From the NCBI GenBank assembly GCA_028753945.1, contig JAPNXP010000001.1:12948501-13012500 (forward strand): 64,000 bases of DNA, given 5' to 3'. The notes under the pieces were generated by a model that was given only the letters and a program-made list of their open reading frames with translations, was not told where the DNA came from and made no database searches. Shown one piece after another: positions 18,771-63,484 of the stretch. Source of the stretch: Hexactinellida sp. DTS-2022 (Eukaryota > Porifera > Hexactinellida). A program made the position numbers and the translations under genes. Each line of letters opens with the position of its first letter. The stretch's first letter is position 1.

Positions 18771-20344
18771 CGATAGAGAATACAATTCTACACCTTTTCA
18801 CAGTGCACGATATATAGTATATTCAGGCACTATTTATTGCTACTATTGTGATGTTAAACAGGTGTAAATGAGTCCAACTAAAATGTAATACAAATCGTGA
18901 CCCCCCCCCGTAATCCATGATACATCCAGGGGCGGCACACCCGATACGGCTGGTGCGGCGAGCGCCGTACCACTTTTCAGAGTGTTCCGGCGTCGCCGCA
19001 CCACTTCAGGATGGCCAGCTTTGCTGTACCACCTCTATCTGTTCGAAATTAAACAATTAATTGACAACTTATCCAATTAATGATTTTATGATCGTTGAAC
19101 CACACTCAAATACCTGGTGTTGAACCGCCGGACAACATTAGAATACTGTAAAATTCTCCGCCGTACCACTTTTCGAAAGGACGTGCTGCCCCTGAGTCAT
19201 CTATAATGAAAATTTGGGCTCTTAGTAAATAAAACTCAGTTCCTTGGAGAGGATACGGACCAACTAATAACTAAAATAACAAAGCAGTAATTCAATACTG
19301 GGGGATTTATACAAAACTATAATCGGCACAGTAAAGAAATTATAAATGTATAAAAATGTAAAAAGAAGCTACAAGATACCGTTAACCAACTGATAGAAGA
19401 GAGGAGTTAGTATAAACTTAACGGTGTGCTGTGGGAAATATCGGATGGGGAATGTGTTAAAGAAAAACTAACAGAATTAACCTAAACAGCTGTGACGTAA
19501 CTGAAACTACAGTCGACTCCGCTTAATAGAGTCACCTCGGGGCAGGTGGATTTGCCCGATTAAGCGGAGAAATATATTAACCGAAGATATTTTAAGCCAA
19601 AATGTAATTCCGTTCCATAAATCCTGCGATATCACATTAACAAGATTAATATAGGTCGCTAATAGCATAAATACTCTAGTTAGCAATTCAATGCATTTGT
19701 CCCGTTATACAGATATCTGATTCTATCAGTTATTTACAGCTATTCGTTCCGCTACGAGAGTTTTCATACCTTTTATCAGCACTTAACGCACTCGCTTATA
19801 TTTCAAACAGAATACAGTAGACCTCGTTAATAGGAACAACAGGGATAATCAAAATGTGTACTCTTATCCGGAATTCGTATTAATTAACTTAAATAGAAAA
19901 TGTTACTCAGGCCCGCAACACTATGACATTTTTCCATTGTGGCCCGCGCTCTAAAAAGTTTGGACACCTCTGCTGTAGAGAATGGGCTGTAGTGTCATTA
20001 TGTATCATTGGGGGTTTGTTATGGTAGTATGTAATCTCATTGGGGAGTTGTTAAACACCCATACAGTGTATCCGTTAATGTTTAACCGCTAAGAAAATAT
20101 AGGAGACAAAATAAATTATTTTATACGAGCCCTTCGGTCTAGGTCGCTTTGCAACGGATCTGTACTACGTAAGTGTTGTAAAATTCGAAATTTTTTGTTT
20201 TCTATGGAAATTTCTGGAAAGATTACATACTTCAAATTATGCTTAGGAACTTTATTTGAAATTGCCAAAATTTTTGTGCTACTTAAGTTGGACTGTCATG
20301 AGGAAAAATAACAAGCGCACAGTAACAACTCTACATTATAGATA
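18771..20344. other. Intergenic repeats between hAT element and Helitron
   Basis: No gene seen. At about 18927-19195 a sequence with inverted ends AGGGGCGGCAC / GTGCTGCCCCT resembles another hAT MITE. A fragment with CGACTCCGCTTAAT ends (pogo-like) begins near 19511. The block 19975-20150 is repeated at 60537-60700. 20171-20344 is the left part of the TAGTGTTGT element that the Helitron interrupted. Confidence 0.5.
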
Positions 20345-21430
20345 CAAGCTGCTCGCCCGCGCTACGCGCGTTCTTACAACTTGCACTCGGGCCTGTGGCC
20401 CTCGCTTGTATTTAAAACAGTTGTATTTTTAAATACATACTCCAATAGACTCAATGCAAATTGAGTAATGTATGTGCATGATTGAGCTCAAACTGATTCT
20501 AGGAGCCTATAAAAATGTCGGTTATGTAACGAAAAATTAACAAAATTATATACCCCCTCCCTACATCTCGCTTTTTGCCATTTTGTAATAAAAAAGGACG
20601 GGCTGTAATACTTACCCCTTGGCATTACTTAAAATTCAACGGCCTTATGCACAGGTTCATTATATTACGGGAAATCATATGAGTAATATTTAGGTGACCG
20701 CTAGTGACACACATAACAGTAATGCTATTGTTTCAGAGTAGGGCTGTGCCCCCCTAAGCTGTCTATTTATCCATGGGCCCTAGGGCCTACGCCTAGCCAT
20801 AGGTATATACGTATAAGGACAGAAAATAAATTGGGAATACTAATCAGCGCCTGTATTGTTGAATATTTATGCTAATTAGAACTTACAATTTTTTAGATAT
20901 TAACGCATGATCGTGTATATTAATGAACCGACTCCAAATAGAAATTAATTAAATATCACTAAGGAACTGTACAACTCTGTGGACCCCTGACTTTGGGCTG
21001 TGGAGAAGTTATTGAATTGATTGTTAATAATCAAATAGACACAATGGAATGTTAGAAATGTATGGGTAGACAGAGTGAACACAATAACTGATTGGATGAA
21101 TGAACTTCCTCTAGACCAATTAAATCACAGTCTCAGATAGGCATTCTATAACGCACACTTGACAATTGATAGAGAGACTGAAATCCTTTTATACGAATTG
21201 AATGCTAGCTGCTAATCCATACTGGAAAACCCTCGAATTTAATAGGCTAAAGTTTTGTCACCTTTAGGGAAGGGAAGATGTTATTTTTTTTCTTAGATAT
21301 TAGAACTTGTTCCTAGAAACAATATCTTCCACCCCCCTGCCAAATTTCAAGTCTGTAGCTCTTACCAGTTCCTCAATCAATTCCGAACAAAAAAACAAAC
21401 AAACAAATCATTGTGATTTAATATATAAGA
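20345..21430 (-). mobile_element. Non-autonomous Helitron, 1086 bp, precise empty site known
   Basis: On the minus strand the element starts TCTTATATATTAAATCAC and ends GGGCGAGCAGCTTG. It sits exactly between A and T of 'aaacca|tatctat', a sequence present uninterrupted in the related MITE at 15351-15639 (about 15457-15470). There is no target duplication. Near the 3' end are two perfect hairpins with three-base loops, GGGCC/GGCCC and CGCGC/GCGCG, and the last 11 bases can also pair (CGAG-CAG-CTTG, one G-T pair). No Rep/helicase ORF is present. Part of the body (20346-20755) is repeated at 22247-22625 and 61404-61833. Confidence 0.8.
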
Positions 21431-28262: not shown

Positions 28263-28555
28263 CGAGCCCTTCGGTCTCGGTCGCTTTGCGACAGATCGAT
28301 GCTCGCACCTCAAGTTAACGGCCGCTATGCGGCCTTACTCCTCACTAAACTATTGATTACATAGCTAGTAATATTTGTCATAATTATTTACTTATAATAC
28401 CCGTTTACTTATAGTACCCATTGAAAACTAACTTCTGGGTTGATTTTGAATTTTCATTAATTTTGTTTACCTATTTGTGTAAACAACAATAAATATTCAT
28501 ATTAGAAATTTGTATCAATGCGAAATTCCAAATCAGCATACTTGTTTACCTATTA

Positions 28556-30497
28556 CATAGACTACTTTAATTAAGGACTGTAGGCTGCCAGCTCGGGTCC
28601 TGGAACTTGGGTCCATTGTGTCTTATTGATATCTCGTAATCCGCTAATGCTAGACACAGGAAATGTATTATTGTCGTATAGGAAGTCATATTTTGGGAGT
28701 CCAATGGTCATATTGCCTTATCTCAAATATTTGTGGAATGTGAGTTTTGCGGTTTTCACACCTTTTCCATATATGGTAATAATCTCAAATTCTCGACTTC
28801 AGTTAGAGTTAGGCATAAGAAATGTATTATAATCGATTGGGAAGTCACATATAAGGAAGATATTGCCATATTGACTATCACTAATTTGCAGTACTCGACA
28901 AATTAGGTGGTTTGTTGCCATTAGCCACCAAAATTCTTTCTTAAGCCACCAAATTTTGCCTTTGGAGGCTTAACTAATCCACTATTGTGGATTATTTGAC
29001 CATGTGTAGATTATATTTTTTGTTGCATTATTTGTTATTAATATTAGTGTTGTTTTACGGCATCAGAAGTTTCTTAAGCCATCAGTGGTTTGTTAAACCA
29101 GCCATTGTTTACCGATTTAAATCGGTAGGAGGTCCAAGTGGCTGCTTTCCACCTTTTACACAGTCGCCCAAACACATTCAAATTGTGATTCACGAAGAAA
29201 AATTATCTTCGATCTTTGAGACTACCTGGATTATTTGGCATTGCCTCAATCCACCTATTCCGTTCATTTTAATCAGTAAGAAAACGGAGTATAAACTATT
29301 GCCCACCTATCTAATTATACCCTGCACAATACTTTGGCATAATTCGTATCCTGATGTCAGTCTCTCAGAAGCTTTAAGTTGCGTGAATACAACTGATAAA
29401 CATAATACTTATAAAGTTAAAGAGCTGAACTATTAATAATCAAAGGTGGTTCAACAAATGTCAATAGTCAGTATTAGTCAAAAATCCATGACTAACATAA
29501 TTTCCTAAATTTACATATCGATTCTAAATAATCATTCGGCTATTTTATAATCTCTACTCATAACATATGTACGTATACTATACTATCAACAAATTTAACC
29601 ATATAAATGTACAGGTAAACCTCCGAAATGCGACACTTTTGGGAGCAGCGCTTGTGCCGGATATTCGGAAGTTGTCGCATATCGGAGGTTGCCCCCGCAT
29701 GCATTATTTATATTGGAAAGTCAATCAGGAGAATGGTTTGTGCCGTATCTCGGAGGTTGTCATGTTTCAGAGGTGCCGCTTTTAGAGGTTTACCTGTATA
29801 CCTTGTTTGTTGTTTGTTTATGACAAGTTTTAGTGATGTATCTGTTTGCTATTTATAATAATAAACTATGATACTACGAGTTATTAAACTAATTACTGCA
29901 GTAATTAAACCATCACCTCACTTTTTATGGTAGCTAAAGAATAAACAATGGCTGGTTTAACAAACTACTGATGGCTTAACAAACTTCTGATGCCGTAAAC
30001 AACACTAATATTAAAAACAAATAATGCAACAAAAATATAATCTACACATTGTAATATAATCCACAAATGGTGGATTAGTTAAGCCTCCAAAGGCAAAATT
30101 TGGATGGCTTAAGAAAGAATTTTGGTGGCTAATGGCAACAAACCACCTAATTTGTCGAGTACTGCTAATTAGTGATAGTCAATATGGCAATATCTTCCTT
30201 ATATGTGACTTCCCATTCGATTATAATACATTTCTTATGTCTAACTCTAACTGAAGTCGAGAATTTGAGATTATTACCATATATGGAAAAGGTGTGAAAA
30301 CCGCAAAACTCACATTCCACAAATATTTGAGATAAGGCAATATGACCATTGGACTCCCAAAATATGACTTCCTATATGACAATAATACAATTCCTGTGTC
30401 TAGCATTAGCGGATTTCGAGATATCAATAAGACACAATGGACCCAAGTTCCAGGACCCGAGCTGGCAGCCTACAGTCCTTAATTAAAGTAGTCTATG
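28556..30497. mobile_element. 1942-bp transposon with ~557-bp inverted arms
   Basis: The arms 28556-29113 and 29942-30497 are inverted copies, starting CATAGACTACTTTAATTAAG. ACCTATTA is duplicated on both sides (28548-28555 and 30498-30505); the uninterrupted host sequence is seen at about 63322-63330. The loop (about 830 bp) holds a 149-codon frame starting in the arm at 28987 with no recognised domain, and a TA-flanked MITE at 29612-29796. The 8-bp duplication suits hAT- or P-class transposases; the element is probably non-autonomous. Confidence 0.85.
29612..29796. mobile_element. MITE with GGTAAACCTCC ends, nested
   Basis: CAGGTAAACCTCCGAAATGC at the left and TTTTAGAGGTTTACCTG at the right with TA flanks. 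It is a longer member of the family at 852-951 and 46227-46326, and lies in the loop of the 1.9-kb transposon, itself inside a Helitron: three levels of nesting. Confidence 0.7.
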
Positions 30498-30675
30498 ACC
30501 TATTATAACATTTGTTTACCAATTATAACATTTGAAAGTTAGTTTATATCTCATATACAAATGCGGTTTCCATTCCCCCATCACTTTAATACGATCCGGA
30601 CAAACACACAAATAAACAAACACACACACAAACAACAATCGAGATTTAATAATATGGATATAACTAATACATATC

Positions 30676-35258: not shown

Positions 35259-36086
35259 TCTATATTATTAAATCTCGATTGTTGTGTGTTTGTTTGTGTG
35301 TGTGTGTGTGTGTGTGTTTGTTTGTCCGGATTGTATTAAAGTGCGGGGGGAATAGAAACCGCATTAATATATGAGAGATAAACTAACTTTCAAATGTTAT
35401 AATAGGTAAACAAATGTTATAATAGGTAAACAAGTATGCTGAACACGAATTTCGCGTTTTTAAATTTCTCATATTAATATTTGTTGTTGTTGTTTACACA
35501 AAATAGGTAAACAAATTAATGAAAATTCAAAATCAACCTAGAAGTTAGCTTCCAACGGGTATTATAGATAAACAAGTATGCCGAACACGAATTTCGCGTT
35601 TATAAATTTCTCATATTAATATTTGTTGTTGTTGTTTACACAAAATAGGTAAACAAATTAATTAAAATTCAAAATCAACCTAGAAGTTAGTTTTCAACGG
35701 GTATTATAGGTAAACAAGTATGCTGAACACGAATTTCGCGTTTAAATTTTCTAATATGAATATTTGTTGTTGTTGTTGTTGTTGTTGTTTACTCAAAATA
35801 GCTAAACAATTTAATGAAAATTCAAAATCAACCTAGAAGTTAACTTTCAATAGGTATTATAAGTAAACAAGTGTGCTGAACACGAATTTCGCATTTATAA
35901 AATTCTAATATGAGTATTTGTTGTTGTTGTTGTTGTTTACACAAATAGGTAAACAAATTAATGAAAATTAGATAGCTATCTACCATTTCCATGGTAGAAA
36001 ATGTGAGGAGTAAGGCCGCTCAGCGGCCGTTAACTTGAGGTGCGTAGCACCGATCTGTCGCAAAGCGACCGAGACCGAAGGGCTCG
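35259..36086 (+). mobile_element. Non-autonomous Helitron with internal tandem repeats, 828 bp
   Basis: Starts TCTATATTATTAAATCTCG after an A, has a GT microsatellite, then about four units of a ~142-bp repeat (recurring 'aacaagtatgctgaacacg'), then 3' hairpins GGCCGC/GCGGCC, GGTGC/GCACC, GTCGC/GCGAC, and a terminal one ending GGGCTCG before a T. The layout (Helitron-type ends, microsatellite, core tandem repeats) resembles the pearl/HINE group of animal elements. No ORF. Confidence 0.8.
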
Positions 36087-39898: not shown

Positions 39899-42800
39899 AT
39901 GGCAATCGAAGAGCTCTCTGCCTTAACGGAACTAACCAACAAGTTAACATCCGAAGAAATAATACAAATCAAGAATGAAATTGGTATCCCAGAAGGATTG
40001 TGTGAAGATATAACTCATAAATCGAATTTCCTAATCGCAATGAAACAATGGAAAGGTAGAGACGCCTACAAGTTCTATCTGGCCCTACAGCACATCCGAC
40101 CCGACTTGTCAGCAATAGCTTGTGATGTGAAGTGGCTATGCGCCTCATCCCCAGTAGAAACCGAATTCCAAGAGGAGGAACTGTCAATCAAAACTCTAAT
40201 CAATCTACTGAGAGATGAAATCCCTATGGATAAATGGTCGATAATATACATAGCTCTGATAAATGAACCAATTGAGAATATCAGTTTTGAGATGGCTATG
40301 AACAAACTGTTGGAAAACGGATTTATTAAGAAAGACCTGAGAAATCTAACAAAGATTCTGGTGGGAATCCAAAGAAATGACGTGGTTGTACAATTGAAGG
40401 TCTACATCACTTTATTCTCGAAAATGCAGGAAGGGGAGTTTGAAAGCAAATTTAAGCGAGAGATCGGAATTCAGGAAAAAGAATTGAAAGAATGGGAATC
40501 CAATCTCAAGCTATTCTCTCTATTTCAACATGGAAAAGTCAAGGAGATGATGGGCTCAGACAAATATGCGAGTCTAGCTGATGTGTATATCGACTTGACA
40601 ATATTGAAGGAAAAACCACAGGAAATTAAATTAAAAGACGAAACAACCTATAATGAAATAGCAATGTTGAGGAGGATTGCGAGACAGGGTGGTTGGAAAA
40701 AGACAGTTGATTTCACCGAGGAAATAGTGACATATGAACGTACTAAACCAGAGATTTGGTGCATTATCGGGAATCCAGGATGTGGGAAAACGTTTTTGGC
40801 AAAGCGAACGGCACTGCGATTTAGTAGCAGCGAATTAGTCGGCATTAAATATTCAATCTCCATTCCTTGCCGCAATACCGATTGGCACTCCATGGAAGCA
40901 ACACGTTATGAAGTGGGAAGCAAAATAGATTCCGAATTTATGCAAAAATGGTTGGTGCTAGGGTTACCCATGGGATCCAGTTGGTCAAACGATTTAGCAA
41001 AGCATCTTAACCAATCAGATGGAGAGGGACTCCTCTTAATAATAGACGGCATGGATGAATTCACCAAGAGGGTTCCATTCAAAGACACGTTTGTATGTTT
41101 GCTACTGAAACGACAAACGCTAATAAGATCCACGATTATTGTCACCAGTCGCCCCGGTGCATGGACTCTCATCTCCTCTACACACACACTGAAAATAGAC
41201 AGATATTATAAAGTGCTAGGATTCTCGCCAAAGAATAGAAATCTCTATTTCAAAAAACAGATAACTAACAAAAAGAAATTAACGGAATGCTTTAACCTAA
41301 TGAACAGACATGATGAGATGAAGCAACTATCCCTAATACCCGTAAACGCATTGTTATTCGCGGCACTACTGAAAGGAGAGGATTCTACCTCCATTAATAC
41401 GCTAACCAAGCTCTACTACGAATTAGTACTGTACATGATCAGGAGAGAATTAATAAGAATGGGCCTAAAAGAGTACTCTCGAGTCTCACGCATTTCAAAC
41501 CTCCACACAGACATACTAGCCTGCCTGCATAGAATAGCATTCATAGCAATCCTCGGAGTGGCAAACAGAGATCTGGTATCGGAAGAGACAGTGACTCTCA
41601 ATTTGGGACAGGAAGAATACCCATGCCAGTGCTTAGGTCTAGCTCACGAGCACTACCGAAAGGAATCCGTCGGACTTATGAAACAAGTGTGGACATTTGT
41701 CCACCTGACTATGCAGGAGTTCGTATCTGCTCTCTATTTGGAACACACTAGCTGGATTAAGCAGTGCTACAGTGTTAGGTATATTTCCCACTCCGAGGCT
41801 AACTTATCTCTGTTCCGAATGGTAGTCAGGTTCCTCTGTGGACTCCTGTCTGATAAAGCAGCTGCTCTTCTCTCCATCCTATACAGGTACCTGACTCCTC
41901 AGCCCATTCAGATGATCGATATGCCTATGAGCTATCAACTTGACTACAGTGATTTGTATCACCATGAAGGTTGGAATCTATTCACCAAAATCTATTTCCA
42001 ATTAGCCTCGATTTTGTATGAAACTAACACAGATTCAATACCATTTTGGTTCAATAACTTCAAACAACACTTTCCGATGCCAGTGTATCTGTATGTACGA
42101 GAATCCGTCTCTCCTAATGAATGGATTTGTTTTATTCAGACTCTCAAACTCGTTCGTCGAATTCAACTCATTTACATCGATACTAGTTATATCAATCCGA
42201 CTCAATTCAAATCTTTAATACAGGAAATGGGAATTTTTTCTATTAATTTATTAATTTTGCGCTTCCAAAGGTAAGATTCCACTAAGGTCCTATCATATAC
42301 CGAAAGTATTAGAGAGACGGGAATTAAGTCTGACACTAAGGTTAGTATTGAGCTACACTACTGTAATTTCAGTGCTGAGAAAGATGTTATTCTTTTTCCT
42401 GCAACAACCAATCAGATTATAGACAGCTTGAGACTATATAGGAATGAATATTCACACACAGCTCTTCAGGAATTAACCAATCTATTCTCCGCTATTCATT
42501 GCTTTTATGTTTTTGAATCTGATAATAATTACGACACTATGGTACCAGCTCTGTGTCAGGCGACACAATTAAGAGTATTACACCTCTATGAGATTCCTTC
42601 TGAACTCATTCCTAGCCTAACAGCTGTGCTACCTCAGTTCTCTAAGCTGCAAGAGATTGCATTCGATAATGCCTCACTGCTACCTGCAATTACTCATCTG
42701 TCAAATCTAACTTATCTACGAATACAAGATCGTAAAACAGAAGACACAACTCTCTGTGATTATTTGTTGCAGATTATTAAATGGAACAGACACTCATTAA

Positions 42801-43252
42801 GAGGAATGGTATTTTGGTATTTGGACATAATTGGATTGAATATTTGGAGTTTGCTTCTCAATTGTTTGGAACTTTGCACTAATTTAGTTCAGCTGAAGCT
42901 ATATGAGATTATTCTACCATCTAATGACGTCACTCACTGGAGTAGCGCTGTTAAACAAATGAAGTCTTTAGTTGAATTGGAATTATTTTATGTCTCCCTC
43001 TACGAGACAGGGTTATTATCTCTCTGTGAAGGCCTGATATACCATCCTGCTATTAGGAGTCTAAAGCTAGGAGACTGTGAGCTGACTTCTCTATCTTGTG
43101 AGCCTCTAGCTAACCTAATTCCAACTGTCTCACAGCTGGAGACACTGAGAGTCAATGGACTATCTGAACCTGACAGAGATCCTATCTCATTACTCAAGGA
43201 AACAGCTGATGAGTTTGGTATTGAGCTTAAGCTAGAGCTTAAGTTGTATTAA
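39899..43252 (+). CDS. NLR-type receptor: death-fold domains, NACHT, LRRs (2 exons)
   Basis: Exons 39899-42270 and 42373-43252 are joined across a 102-bp GT-AG intron (donor AAG|GTAAGA, acceptor TTTCAG), giving 1083 residues. Residues about 5-80 look like a DED-type death fold (LTSEEIIQIKNEIGIPEG, then IRPDLSAIA); about 95-170 may be a second one (LLENGFIKKDL). The NACHT ATPase follows: Walker A GNPGCGKT at 291-298, Walker B LLLIIDGMDE at 378-387, TSRPG at 416-420. The second exon has a few weak leucine-rich repeats (LVQLKLYEI, LVELELFYV, IRSLKLGDC). Such proteins are cytosolic sensors that oligomerise on ligand binding; sponges have expanded families. The ligand and partners are unknown. The gene is intact, with a MITE 60 bp after the stop. 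Confidence 0.85.
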
Positions 43253-60335: not shown

Positions 60336-62097
60336 CAGGCCTGATCACTCTTACGTCACTGGTTAGGTCGGTACCACTTTATAACTGAGTCTACCTGATG
60401 TCCTTTGTCCCTCCAGTTAGCAATAATATCCCCTGGTATAGGAGCTAGCGAAATAACGTGTCCATGAGGAGATGTGTATTCTCTAAGCTGGTTGCGTCAG
60501 TAGAACGAGTAGAGCGAGGCTCCCTATAGCGTAGCTGTAGAGAATGGGCTGTAGTGTCATTATGTATCATTGGGGGTTTGTTATGGTAGTATGTAATCCC
60601 ATTGGGGAGTTGTCAAACACCCATACAGTGTATCCATTAATATTTAACTGCTAAGAAAAAATAGGAGACAAATAAATTATTCTATACGACACCCCTTCGG
60701 TCTAGGTCGCTTTGCGATCTACGCACCTCAAGTTAACAATTTAACAATTACGCTTTGCGACGTGTCTGTGCCAGGGGTGGCGCCAGGATTTCCCCGATAG
60801 GGGGGGCTAAATAGAGGGACGCGAACACCTGCTCGTGTAAACTTTCCCCGACGGGGGGCAAAGGTTCCCCGACGGGGGGGCTATTGCCCCCCCTGCATCC
60901 CGGCGGCCCAATCCGCCCCTGCTAGTGCTACACTCCTCAAGTTAAATACTTTCCTCTTCTCTCCATGGAGGATATTATATAGTTCTAGGGCCGTAGCCAC
61001 TGGTCAGGTTGGTCAGGTTTCAACCTGACCACTTTTAGTTGGTTGGACAGGTTAACCTGAACCCTTGGCCCTGTTGGTACTGTATCCAGCCCGGTCTAAC
61101 CTGACCACTTTTAATTGGTGGCTACGGCACTGAGTTCCCTTTCTACCATTTCCATAATTATAAGTTATTGACCTATAATACCGTTGAAAGTAAATTTGTT
61201 TACCTGTTTTTGTAAACAACAATAAATATTAACATTATAAATTTGTAAATGCGAAATTCGTAATCAGCATACTTATTTACCTATTATAACATTTGGAAGT
61301 TAGTTTATATCTCAATTTAATATACATGCGGATTTATACCCCCATCACTTTAATTAATACAATCCGGACAAACAAACACACAACAATCGAGTTTTAATCA
61401 TTTAAGCTGCTCGTCCGCGCTACGCGCGTTCTACAACTTTCACTCGGGCCTAGGTCCCTCGCTTGTAATTTACACACATGCCTTTTCAAATAAAATTCCG
61501 GTTGTATTTATAGACGTGATGCAAATTGAGTAATGAATGTATGTGCATTTAATATTGAGATCAAACTGAATCTAGGCGCCTATAAAAAAGTGTCGGGTTA
61601 TGTAACGAAAAATTAACAAAATTTTTATACCCCCTCCCTACATCACGCTTTTGCCATTTTGTAATAAAAAGGACGGGCTGTAACACTTACCCCCTTGAGC
61701 ATTACTTAAAATTCAAAGGCCCTATACACAGGTTCATTATATTACGGGGAATCATATGGGTAATGTTTATGTTACCGCTAGTGACCCACATAACAGTAAT
61801 GCTATTGTTTCAGAGTAGGGTTGTGCCCCCCTAATAGCATAGGCGTAGGCTCCGGCCAGGGTTGGTGAGGCCATGGCCCTACCAATAATTTGTCAAGACT
61901 CAAGAGCCATCATCTTCTATTAAGTGTGATGCAAGTTAGCATAAATGGCCCTACCAATCCTGAATCCAAGCTCAATGGCCCTACGGCCCCTACCAATCCC
62001 AATTCCGAGTCTACGAGTATGAACAAGTATGTTGAATTCGAATTTCGCATTTACAAATTGCTAATATGAATATTTACTGTTGTGATTTACAAAAATA
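60336..62097. other. Repeat mosaic related to 20-22.6 kb
   Basis: 60537-60700 matches 19975-20150; 60930-61400 matches 21530-22250; 61404-61833 matches 20346-20755. About 61000-61132 is an extra insert with ends GGGCCGTAGCCAC / GTGGCTACGGC and internal inverted 'aacctgaccactttt', absent from the 21.58-kb copy. 60830-60900 has repeated 'ccccgacgggggg'. No gene supported. Confidence 0.6.
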
Positions 62098-63484
62098 CGA
62101 GCCCTTCGGTCTCGGTCGCTTTGCGACAGATCGGTGCTACGCACCTCAAGTTAACGGCCGCTGTGCGGCCTTACTCCTCACACTTTCTACCATAGAAATG
62201 GTAGAAAGGGGCGTTATGATTTTGAATTTTTTATTAATTTGTTTACCTATTTGTGTAAACAACAACAACAACAACAAATACTCATATTAGAATTTTATAA
62301 ATGCGAAAATCGTGTTCATCATCTTGTTTACCTATTATAACCCGTTGAAAGCTAACTTCTAGGTTGATTTTGAATTTTCATTAATTTGTTTACCTATTTT
62401 GTGTAAACAACAACAATATTCATATGAGAAATTTTTAAACGCGAAAATCGTGTTCAGCATACTTGTTTACCTATAATACTCGTTGAAAGCTAACTTCTAG
62501 GTTGATTTTGAATTTTCATTAATTTGTTTACCTATTTTGTGTAGACAACAACAAAAAATATTCATATGAGAAATTTTTAAACGCGAAATTCGTGTTCAGC
62601 ATACTTGTTTACCTATAATACTCGTTGAAAGCTAACTTCTAGGTTGATTTTGAATTTTCATTAATTTGTTTACCTATTTTGTGTAGACAACAACAACAAA
62701 TATTAATATGAGAAATTTTTAAACGCGAAATTCGTGTTCAGCATACTTGTTTACCTATAATACCCGTTGAAAGCTAACTTCTAGGTTGATTTTGAATTTT
62801 CATTAATTTGTTTACCTATTTTGTGTAAACAACAACAACAAATATTCATATGAGAAATTTTTAAACGCGAAATTCGTGTTCAGCATACTTGTTTACCTAT
62901 AATACCCGTTGAAAGCTAACTTCTAGGTTGATTTTGAATTTTCATTAATTTGTTTACCTATTTTGTGTAAACAACAACAACAAATATTCATATGAGAAAT
63001 TTTTAAACGCGAAATTCGTGTTCAGCATACTTGTTTACCTATAATACCCGTTGAAAGCTAACTTCTAGGTTGATTTTGAATTTTCATTAATTTGTTTACC
63101 TATTTTGTGTAAACAACAACAACAAATATTCATATGAGAAATTTTTAAACGCGAAATTCGTGTTCAGCATACTTGTTTACCTATAATACCCGTTGAAAGC
63201 TAACTTCTAGGTTGATTTTGAATTTTCATTAATTTGTTTACCTATTTTGTGTAAACAACAACAACAAATATTCATATGAGAAATTTATAAACGCGAAATT
63301 CGTGTTCAGCATACTTGTTTACCTATTATAACATTTGTTTACCTATTATAACATTTGAAAGTTAGTTTATATCTCAATATTAATTGCGGTTTCTATTCCC
63401 CCAATCACTTTAATACAATCCGGACAAACAAACACACACACACACACACACACACAAACAACAATCGAGATTTAATAATATAGA
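62098..63484 (-). mobile_element. Helitron with 142-bp tandem array, 1387 bp
   Basis: On the minus strand it starts TCTATATTATTAAATCTCG after an A and ends AAGGGCTCG before a T. Next to the 5' end is a CA microsatellite; then 62.3-63.33 kb is an array in which 'cagcatacttg' recurs at 62455, 62597, 62739, 62881, 63023, 63165 and 63307, exactly 142 bp apart. The 3' end (62098-62180) has four short hairpins in a row with three-base loops. No ORF for a Rep/helicase, so it is non-autonomous; it has the same design as 35259-36086. Confidence 0.85.

Follow-up and report, generated by a model that had tools for sequence, protein, structure and literature searches.

Canonical Helitrons (Helitron1), and bat Helraiser and Helibat with them, combine an HUH-Rep and PIF1 transposase with a 5'-TC end, insertion at A|T and a subterminal hairpin. 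In the published accounts covered, this hairpin is a single palindrome of 16-20 bp located approximately 10-15 nt from the 3' end, and the terminus of Helitron1 is CTRR. In the reconstructed element Helraiser, the 3' hairpin serves as a terminator of transposition, as its deletion lowers efficiency and raises read-through, and the element without the hairpin still moves, less efficiently (PMC4778049). Replacement of the stem keeps approximately 90% of the activity, while a change in the loop together with the pair at its base acts like the deletion; the loop changed was one of three bases (ATT), and it is the loop and the closing pair that matter there (PMC4778049). The role of the hairpin is disputed: in the parts of the reports covered, a later paper interprets the Helraiser hairpin data as indicating little effect (PMC6544945), and little evidence for such a role was described for maize and rice Helitrons (PMC2575219).

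Like the elements analysed here, HINE, DINE-1 and Helentron elements include short non-autonomous copies that carry a microsatellite and, centrally, tandem repeats, and an OTU domain is present in some relatives. HINE-Mo, with a palindromic subterminal inverted repeat (subTIR) and a 3' palindrome, has two 3' palindromes (PMC4067079, portion covered). The Fusarium elements FoHeli1 and FoHeli2 (Helitron2 group) carry the 5'-end hairpins CAGCC-GAA-GGCTG and AGTCC-GAA-GGACT, i.e. C-GAA-G triloops like those found here, with which they have the core CC-GAA-GG in common (PMC5148889). From chemistry, GNA mini-hairpins containing two G-C pairs or more are known to be extraordinarily stable (Tm of 78 C for GCGAAGC) and nuclease resistant, and their core of G-C pairs closing a GNA loop is the same as that described below (PMC4686876). 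The same core is found in the 3' part, GTTGCGAAGCAAC, of the phage N4 P1 promoter oligonucleotide (PMC12633501). Unlike the hairpins in this study, neither of these two is a transposon end. The N4 hairpin is resistant to single-strand binding protein.

In this study, we analysed a window of 64,000 nucleotides (C1:12948501-13012500) of a 112 Mb genome, together with genome-wide copies of the element at window positions 62098-63484. These elements are Helitrons with a serial array of mini-hairpins at the 3' terminus, mostly three to five when imperfect ones are counted, and the hairpins mostly combine a G+C-rich stem with a three-base loop closed by a C-G pair, on the strand bearing 5'-TC and CTCG-3'. 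The original prediction had suggested that such a terminus was undescribed, and no multi-hairpin Helitron 3' end was recognized in the literature searched, a scope outside which Repbase and most subscription papers lay and which leaves absence unproven.

The element at 62098-63484 and its Helitron context

Read on the minus strand, the element takes the form A|TCTATATTATTAAATCTCG...CGAGACCGAAGGGCTCG|T. Its 5' side consists, in order, of A|TCTATATTATTAAATCTCGATTG, a CA microsatellite and the 142-bp repeat array (Table 1), and its 3' end is GGCCGC-ACA-GCGGCC GTTAACTTGA GGTGC-GTA-GCACC GATCT GTCGC-AAA-GCGAC CGAG-A-CC-GAA-GG-G-CTCG|T. At least 63 stretches across the genome match this element. Three copies with TC...CTCG ends and A|T insertion had been proposed for the window (62098-63484, 35259-36086 and 28263-30658), and both coordinates and ends proved correct by sequence. 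The four hairpins named for the 62098 end were all located, the terminal one being imperfect (an A.G mismatch between the CGAG stem and CC-GAA-GG). These hairpins had been assigned to all three copies, which do have their ends in common, but the GGTGC hairpin of the 28263-30658 copy is damaged, with one loop base missing and a G.T pair. The claim that 20345-21430 follows the same design with other stem sequences was confirmed, its 3' end being GGGCC-ACA-GGCCC ... CGCGC-GTA-GCGCG ... CAGCTTG|T. By eye, the 28263-30658 copy also contains a large inverted repeat (approximately 28540-30490, arms of several hundred bases), and open frames at 39899-43252 of the window resemble a NACHT-type ATPase with leucine-rich repeats.

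Table 1. Features of the window; positions count from its first nucleotide
Feature	Position	Strand	Details	Basis
Non-autonomous Helitron, end type 3a	62098..63484	-	5' TC at 63484, 3' CTCG at 62098, A|T insertion	Sequence
M4, terminal imperfect hairpin	62098..62114	-	CGAG-A-CC-GAA-GG-G-CTCG; contains the 3' end	Sequence, DNA folding
M3 hairpin	62115..62127	-	GTCGC-AAA-GCGAC	Hairpin scan, DNA folding
M2 hairpin	62133..62145	-	GGTGC-GTA-GCACC	Hairpin scan, genome count, DNA folding
M1 hairpin	62156..62170	-	GGCCGC-ACA-GCGGCC	Hairpin scan, DNA folding
Upstream AT-rich hairpin	62184..62207	-	TTTCTACCAT-TTCT-ATGGTAGAAA; loop of 4 bases; missing in some copies	By eye
142-bp repeat array	62217..63330	-	7.8 copies	
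Helitron copy, end type 3a	35259..36086	+	M1 36014-36028 (loop TCA), M2 36039-36051, M3 36057-36069, M4 36070-36086	
Helitron copy, end type 3a	28263..30658	-	M4 28263-28279, M3 28280-28292, M2 damaged, M1 28320-28334	
Helitron copy, end type 3d	20345..21430	-	TC...CTTG	
Type 3d hairpin of the 20345-21430 copy	20358-20370	-	CGCGC-GTA-GCGCG	
Type 3d hairpin of the 20345-21430 copy	20389-20401	-	GGGCC-ACA-GGCCC	
Type 3d terminal stem of the 20345-21430 copy	20345-20351 paired with 20377-20383	-	7 bp	DNA folding
Decayed 3a-like 3' end	20126..20215	-	Altered M3 and M4 retained, T next	
Hairpin from a decayed type 3d end	61416..61428	-	CGCGC-GTA-GCGCG	

The genome contains 151 matches to Helitron_like_N. 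Open frames of 1902, 1640 and 1453 codons (two pieces each) matched Helitron_like_N, PIF1, Pif1_2B and OTU in Pfam, the OTU domain setting these transposases apart from those of canonical Helitrons. The three transposases, A1, A2 and A4, are 62.0 to 63.2% identical in pairwise comparison and have HUH, two tyrosines and Walker A in common; no Pfam match to an endonuclease domain was obtained for any of them, and no encoded relatives were found in viral_contigs or genome_contigs. In the A1 copy at C1:2899280-2909992, a type 3a end lies on either side of the 1902-codon frame, and one A4 copy on C1, of type 3d, sits inside a type 3a element, joined to it at A|T without duplication (by eye). Among 67 distinct 3' ends of types 3a-3c, a set that includes decayed ones, 66 were followed by T and the exception is truncated, and all 12 listed type 3a 5' ends (11 distinct copies, one stray match left out) were preceded by A. 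CTCG|TC head-to-tail junctions were detected at 13 places with up to three mismatches, including seven exact ones, against none in the control, and this genomic footprint matches the head-to-tail junction described for Helraiser circles in the covered part of that report (PMC4778049). As A|T insertion alone would not yield them, these junctions point to rolling-circle products. The predicted Helitron identity is therefore supported by the HUH-Rep and PIF1 fusion, the A|T insertion without target duplication and the head-to-tail junctions.

The 5'-TC of Helitron1 is present, but the 3' terminus is CTCG (types 3a-3c) or CTTG (type 3d) instead of CTRR, and these elements are therefore not strictly canonical Helitron1. 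Moreover, the hairpin located 13 or 17 nt from the 3' end is one of a row, and the last bases themselves lie within a hairpin, unlike the single subterminal palindrome of canonical Helitrons. HINE/pearl elements, put forward in the original prediction for comparison, are in our judgement the wrong choice, because the autonomous partners here lack a match to an endonuclease domain and insertion is at A|T, not at the TT or T-rich target of HINE, DINE-1 and Helentron elements; no subTIRs were seen by eye. Of the asymmetric terminal inverted repeats of Helitron2, only one correspondence, of CGAGA in M4 with TCTCG on the 5' side, was recognized by eye. As described in the part of the report covered, FoHeli1 and FoHeli2 have one hairpin per end, tied to such repeats, with TNAT|T insertion and an ATTTT terminus (PMC5148889), in contrast to the 3' run of hairpins, A|T insertion and CTCG/CTTG terminus found here.

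A second Rep-helicase group (B; L036, L037, L040 and L041 on C11 and C1) is Helentron-like, with many frames of approximately 1700 codons, an OTU-like end and a region resembling an endonuclease (domains by eye). No run of G+C-rich triloop hairpins was found in the fetched flanks of group B elements, their exact ends not being located.

End types and conservation of the hairpins

Four end types (3a, 3b, 3c and 3d) were found on the three transposases. Hairpins of all four retain perfect or near-perfect pairing, with two or three perfect triloop hairpins in each of four representative ends, one per type. Type 3a ends accompany A1 in three copies (L010, L021 and L018) and lie downstream of the A1-like L013; no end was present in the fetched stretch of the A1 copy L016. 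Type 3b was found with A2 in L022 and at ten other sites that were fetched (L101-L110, of which one is truncated), its modules being GGCCGC-GCA-GCGGTC, GGCGT-GAA-GCGCC (AAA in L022), GTCGC-AAA-GCGAC (loop GAA in L015, where M1 is missing) and then M4. Type 3c has an extra 11-bp hairpin, M2b (ACAAAAGTCGC-GAA-GCGACTTTTGT), and a degenerate M2; an A2-type 5' end of this type lies beside L015 (by eye). Type 3d accompanies A4 in three of the four copies inspected, the fetched stretch of the fourth having stopped short. That A2 carries type 3a ends was considered and rejected on comparison of the copies, L022 being type 3b. In L014 with L031 (C1:13948263-13956500), an A2 body is followed by a type 3a 3' end that perhaps belongs to a fused or nested element and not to A2 itself.

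Genome-wide, the exact GGTGCGTAGCACC occurs 941 times (reversed control, 0), and the terminal 31 bases with up to three mismatches occur in 3136 copies (control, 0). Among the first 100 listed of the 941 sites, 66 match an anchored Helitron-end pattern; 31 of the other 34 were fetched, and all 31 lie at a Helitron end with the same module order (by eye). An origin of the GGTGC hairpin as an independent repeat, raised in the original prediction as a possible objection, is thus unsupported in the sample examined.

Three perfect triloop hairpins (stem of at least five) are present in the last 90 bases of the 62098 end, and a type 3c end of 150 bases likewise has three, numbers that none of 5000 dinucleotide shuffles reached in either case, while the two hairpins of the 20345 end and of the type 3b end were equalled by 23 and 26 of 5000 shuffles, respectively. 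When the 62098 end was folded as single-stranded DNA, the minimum-energy structure comprised the four named hairpins and no others (z -3.5, compared with -3.0 for the complementary strand), and type 3c gave z -5.1 (complementary strand -5.6). Folding was weak for type 3b (z -1.4, with M2 drawn with a five-base loop; complementary strand -1.4) and for type 3d (20345 end, z -1.7; complementary strand -1.0). The scores of these latter two types are unremarkable, and folding of the complementary strand is nearly as good.

The loop letters are conserved as C-RNA-G, mostly GNA, on one strand, a regularity absent from the original prediction. On the element strand (5'-TC...CTCG-3'), C-G closes nearly all modules, the exception being M2 of type 3b (T.G), and the loops are GTA, GAA, GCA or ACA/AAA. 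By module, the loops are ACA/GCA/GAA in M1, GTA/GAA in M2, GAA in M2b, AAA/GAA in M3 and GAA in M4, with variation in single copies, and ACA/GCA followed by GTA in type 3d. In the type 3a end of 62098 itself, two of the four modules have ACA or AAA, not GNA, and a hand count of M3 loops in exact terminal blocks (the first 100 of those listed) gave 49 GAA and 51 AAA. The closing C and the loop G form a CpG, so that ACA and AAA would be one transition away from GCA and GAA. Ten of ten perfect triloop hairpins (one representative end per type, some homologous) were C-RNA-G on the element strand, compared with four C-RNA-G and no C-GNA-G among 41 other G+C-rich triloop hairpins on either strand of the scanned stretches, a set that was stem-filtered and lists some hairpins on both strands.

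The original prediction had taken variable stems around a loop of fixed size as a sign of selection on structure. This variation holds between end types, but inside type 3a most copies have one stem sequence, and the proposed covariation proved weak. In an alignment of 49 ends of types 3a and 3b (44 distinct; 25 of the 39 type 3a rows selected for exact M2; decayed or truncated ends, namely 6 of the 31 fetched unanchored sites and others among the 67 distinct ends, excluded), 97.0% of 967 cells pair, a level reached by none of 500 shuffles. Two-sided changes were detected in 3 of 22 pairs, a count reached by 79 of 500 shuffles and exceeded by one slid control (4). Chief among them is a T-A pair of 3a that is C-G in 3b (9 sequences), and a two-sided G-C to A-T change in M1 falls at CpGs. 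For type 3c, 31 loci were examined, of which 6 without M2b and 3 with shifts were excluded; in the remaining 22 ends (19 distinct, M3 preselected for GAA in 11), 99.1% of 532 cells pair (0 of 500 shuffles), and a single two-sided change in 28 pairs, A-T to G-C in M2b of four sequences (three distinct), was matched by 202 of 500 shuffles. The shuffles in both alignments ignore relatedness. Compensation inside type 3a was sought in the alignment and with genome-wide anchored patterns (100 listed of 762 and 100 of 692 matches): no Watson-Crick compensated pair was found, either in 21 variants of M2 among 97 full-length of 100 listed copies or in the 19 listed copies of 100 in which M3 carries a substitution. 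Most two-sided changes are probably single events. Since two-sided pairs are few in types 3a, 3b and 3c, and the stems of type 3d are wholly different at the same loops yet paired, the structure is kept between end types and rich covariation is absent.

Readings of the hairpin array

We consider it reasonably likely that the array acts as a serial, reinforced termination signal for rolling-circle transposition, with loop and shape read on the displaced strand, because in Helraiser the loop and closing pair mattered and the stem sequence did not. Rep would nick at TC and PIF1 would peel off the TC-bearing strand; on emergence of the 3' end, the mini-hairpins would fold in vivo in cis on the displaced strand, signalling that the end has been reached, and Rep would then cut after CTCG (or CTTG). 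Hairpins in series would lower the odds of missing the end. Recognition would be chiefly through the loop, the closing pair and the hairpin shape, and stems may therefore drift while still pairing. The hairpins may, in addition, shield the free 3' end and withstand single-strand binding protein.

More tentatively, each C-GNA-G mini-hairpin may be a separate, exceptionally stable and strand-specific stop unit, of which the loop and closing pair are read, not the stem. Such units would fold despite coating with single-strand binding protein, and their series would suppress read-through and protect the 3' end, while stems would be replaceable and palindromes would sometimes flip or be rebuilt. 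If this holds, end types could diverge and yet stay readable to the transposase. It would also mean that evolution has put GNA mini-hairpins to use in a mobile element of a eukaryote. The genome supplies natural ends by the thousand in which several hairpins have one loop type and different stems, and comparing them could show which of the modules can be dispensed with and whether it is the loop or the stem that is read. They could also show whether capture of flanking DNA declines as the number of hairpins rises.

As a counterpoint to termination by the array, ends with a TTC-loop M2b, module-poor ends and the degenerate M2 of type 3c exist among natural copies. The main rival reading, which we regard as unlikely, is that an ordinary terminator is formed by no more than the final one or two hairpins (M3/M4, or the GTA hairpin of type 3d), those upstream being passengers that arose by duplication or end joining. 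From M3 to M4, the sequence hardly differs between types 3a, 3b and 3c, while the upstream modules are variable or lost; among 20 sampled GAA-type ends, one (L137) has M3 and M4 only, behind unrelated DNA, one (L140) lacks M1, and in three (L143-L145) no separate M2b-to-M3 stretch is present, which reads as a deletion between the two GTCGCGAAGCGAC copies. In addition, the core of M2b is the same as that of M3, and M3 and the 3d GTA hairpin lie 17 and 13 nt from the end, at or close to the canonical 10-15 nt. Passenger hairpins are, however, difficult to reconcile with the pairing and loop type that M1 and M2 keep across types 3a and 3b, and with the order of ACA/GCA then GTA, which recurs in type 3d with other stems. 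The irregular copies (L137, L140, L143-L145, L131 and L134) indicate that not every module or loop is required for a copy to exist.

Two of the 20 sampled GAA-type ends, L131 and L134, have the M2b loop TTC instead of GAA in an otherwise identical palindrome, i.e. an inverted (flipped) hairpin common to both copies, and in L139 a new long palindrome was assembled from neighbouring sequence. Such changes, which resemble hairpin-templated events, suggest that the palindromes may now and then be processed as hairpins, and they are what would be expected if imperfect palindromes had been perfected by mutation, through template switching or cruciform processing, and not by selection for a signal. 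We consider this origin improbable, as copies gather one-sided, unrepaired changes and such a process would not conserve C-RNA-G on one strand.

It is highly improbable that the hairpins act in RNA, as a transcript-stabilizing or transcription-ending structure 3' of the transposase gene: although the GNA-loop strand is the sense strand of the transposase, the array extends to the final base of the element as DNA, follows the frame at a distance of approximately 1.5 kb for A4 (in L025) and 3.7 kb for A1 (in L010), and is retained in short copies without such a frame. That the hairpins are independent palindromic mini-elements inserted into Helitron ends is scarcely credible, since all the fetched unanchored sites are Helitron ends of one module order, even though C-GAA-G hairpins do occur elsewhere in dispersed repeats.

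Related hairpins and neighbouring Helitron ends

Searches for more end types by a GTA loop with other G+C stems gave 39 matches (22 in the reversed control), and by a GAA loop 84 matches (58 in the control). The module run was present in none of 20 fetched GAA-loop sites, most of which came from a few other dispersed repeats, and C-GAA-G hairpins therein are not recognizable as Helitron ends. L111-L115, L122-L124 and L128 represent a different dispersed repeat with a hairpin of the GGGGC-GAA-GCCCC type (TCCAGGGGC-GAA-GCCCCTGGA in some); several of its copies have a neighbouring C-rich/G-rich hairpin and are not recognizably Helitron ends. L129 (C12:5833515-5833740) contains AAAGCGACCTACGAGC-GAA-GCTCG, which looks like M3/M4 in a remote or decayed form.

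Another Helitron's 5' end was observed directly after the type 3c 3' end in L091, L093, L097, L098, L099 and L134, and in L096, L136, L139, L140 and L143. The other Helitron's 5' end is cut at an A|T in these junctions, CTCG|TATTATTAAATCTCG or CTCG|TATATAAAAAGAGG, a frequent arrangement, as though such 5' ends were preferred targets. In L095, the junction CTCG|TCTATCTAAAAAGAGG is head-to-tail-like.
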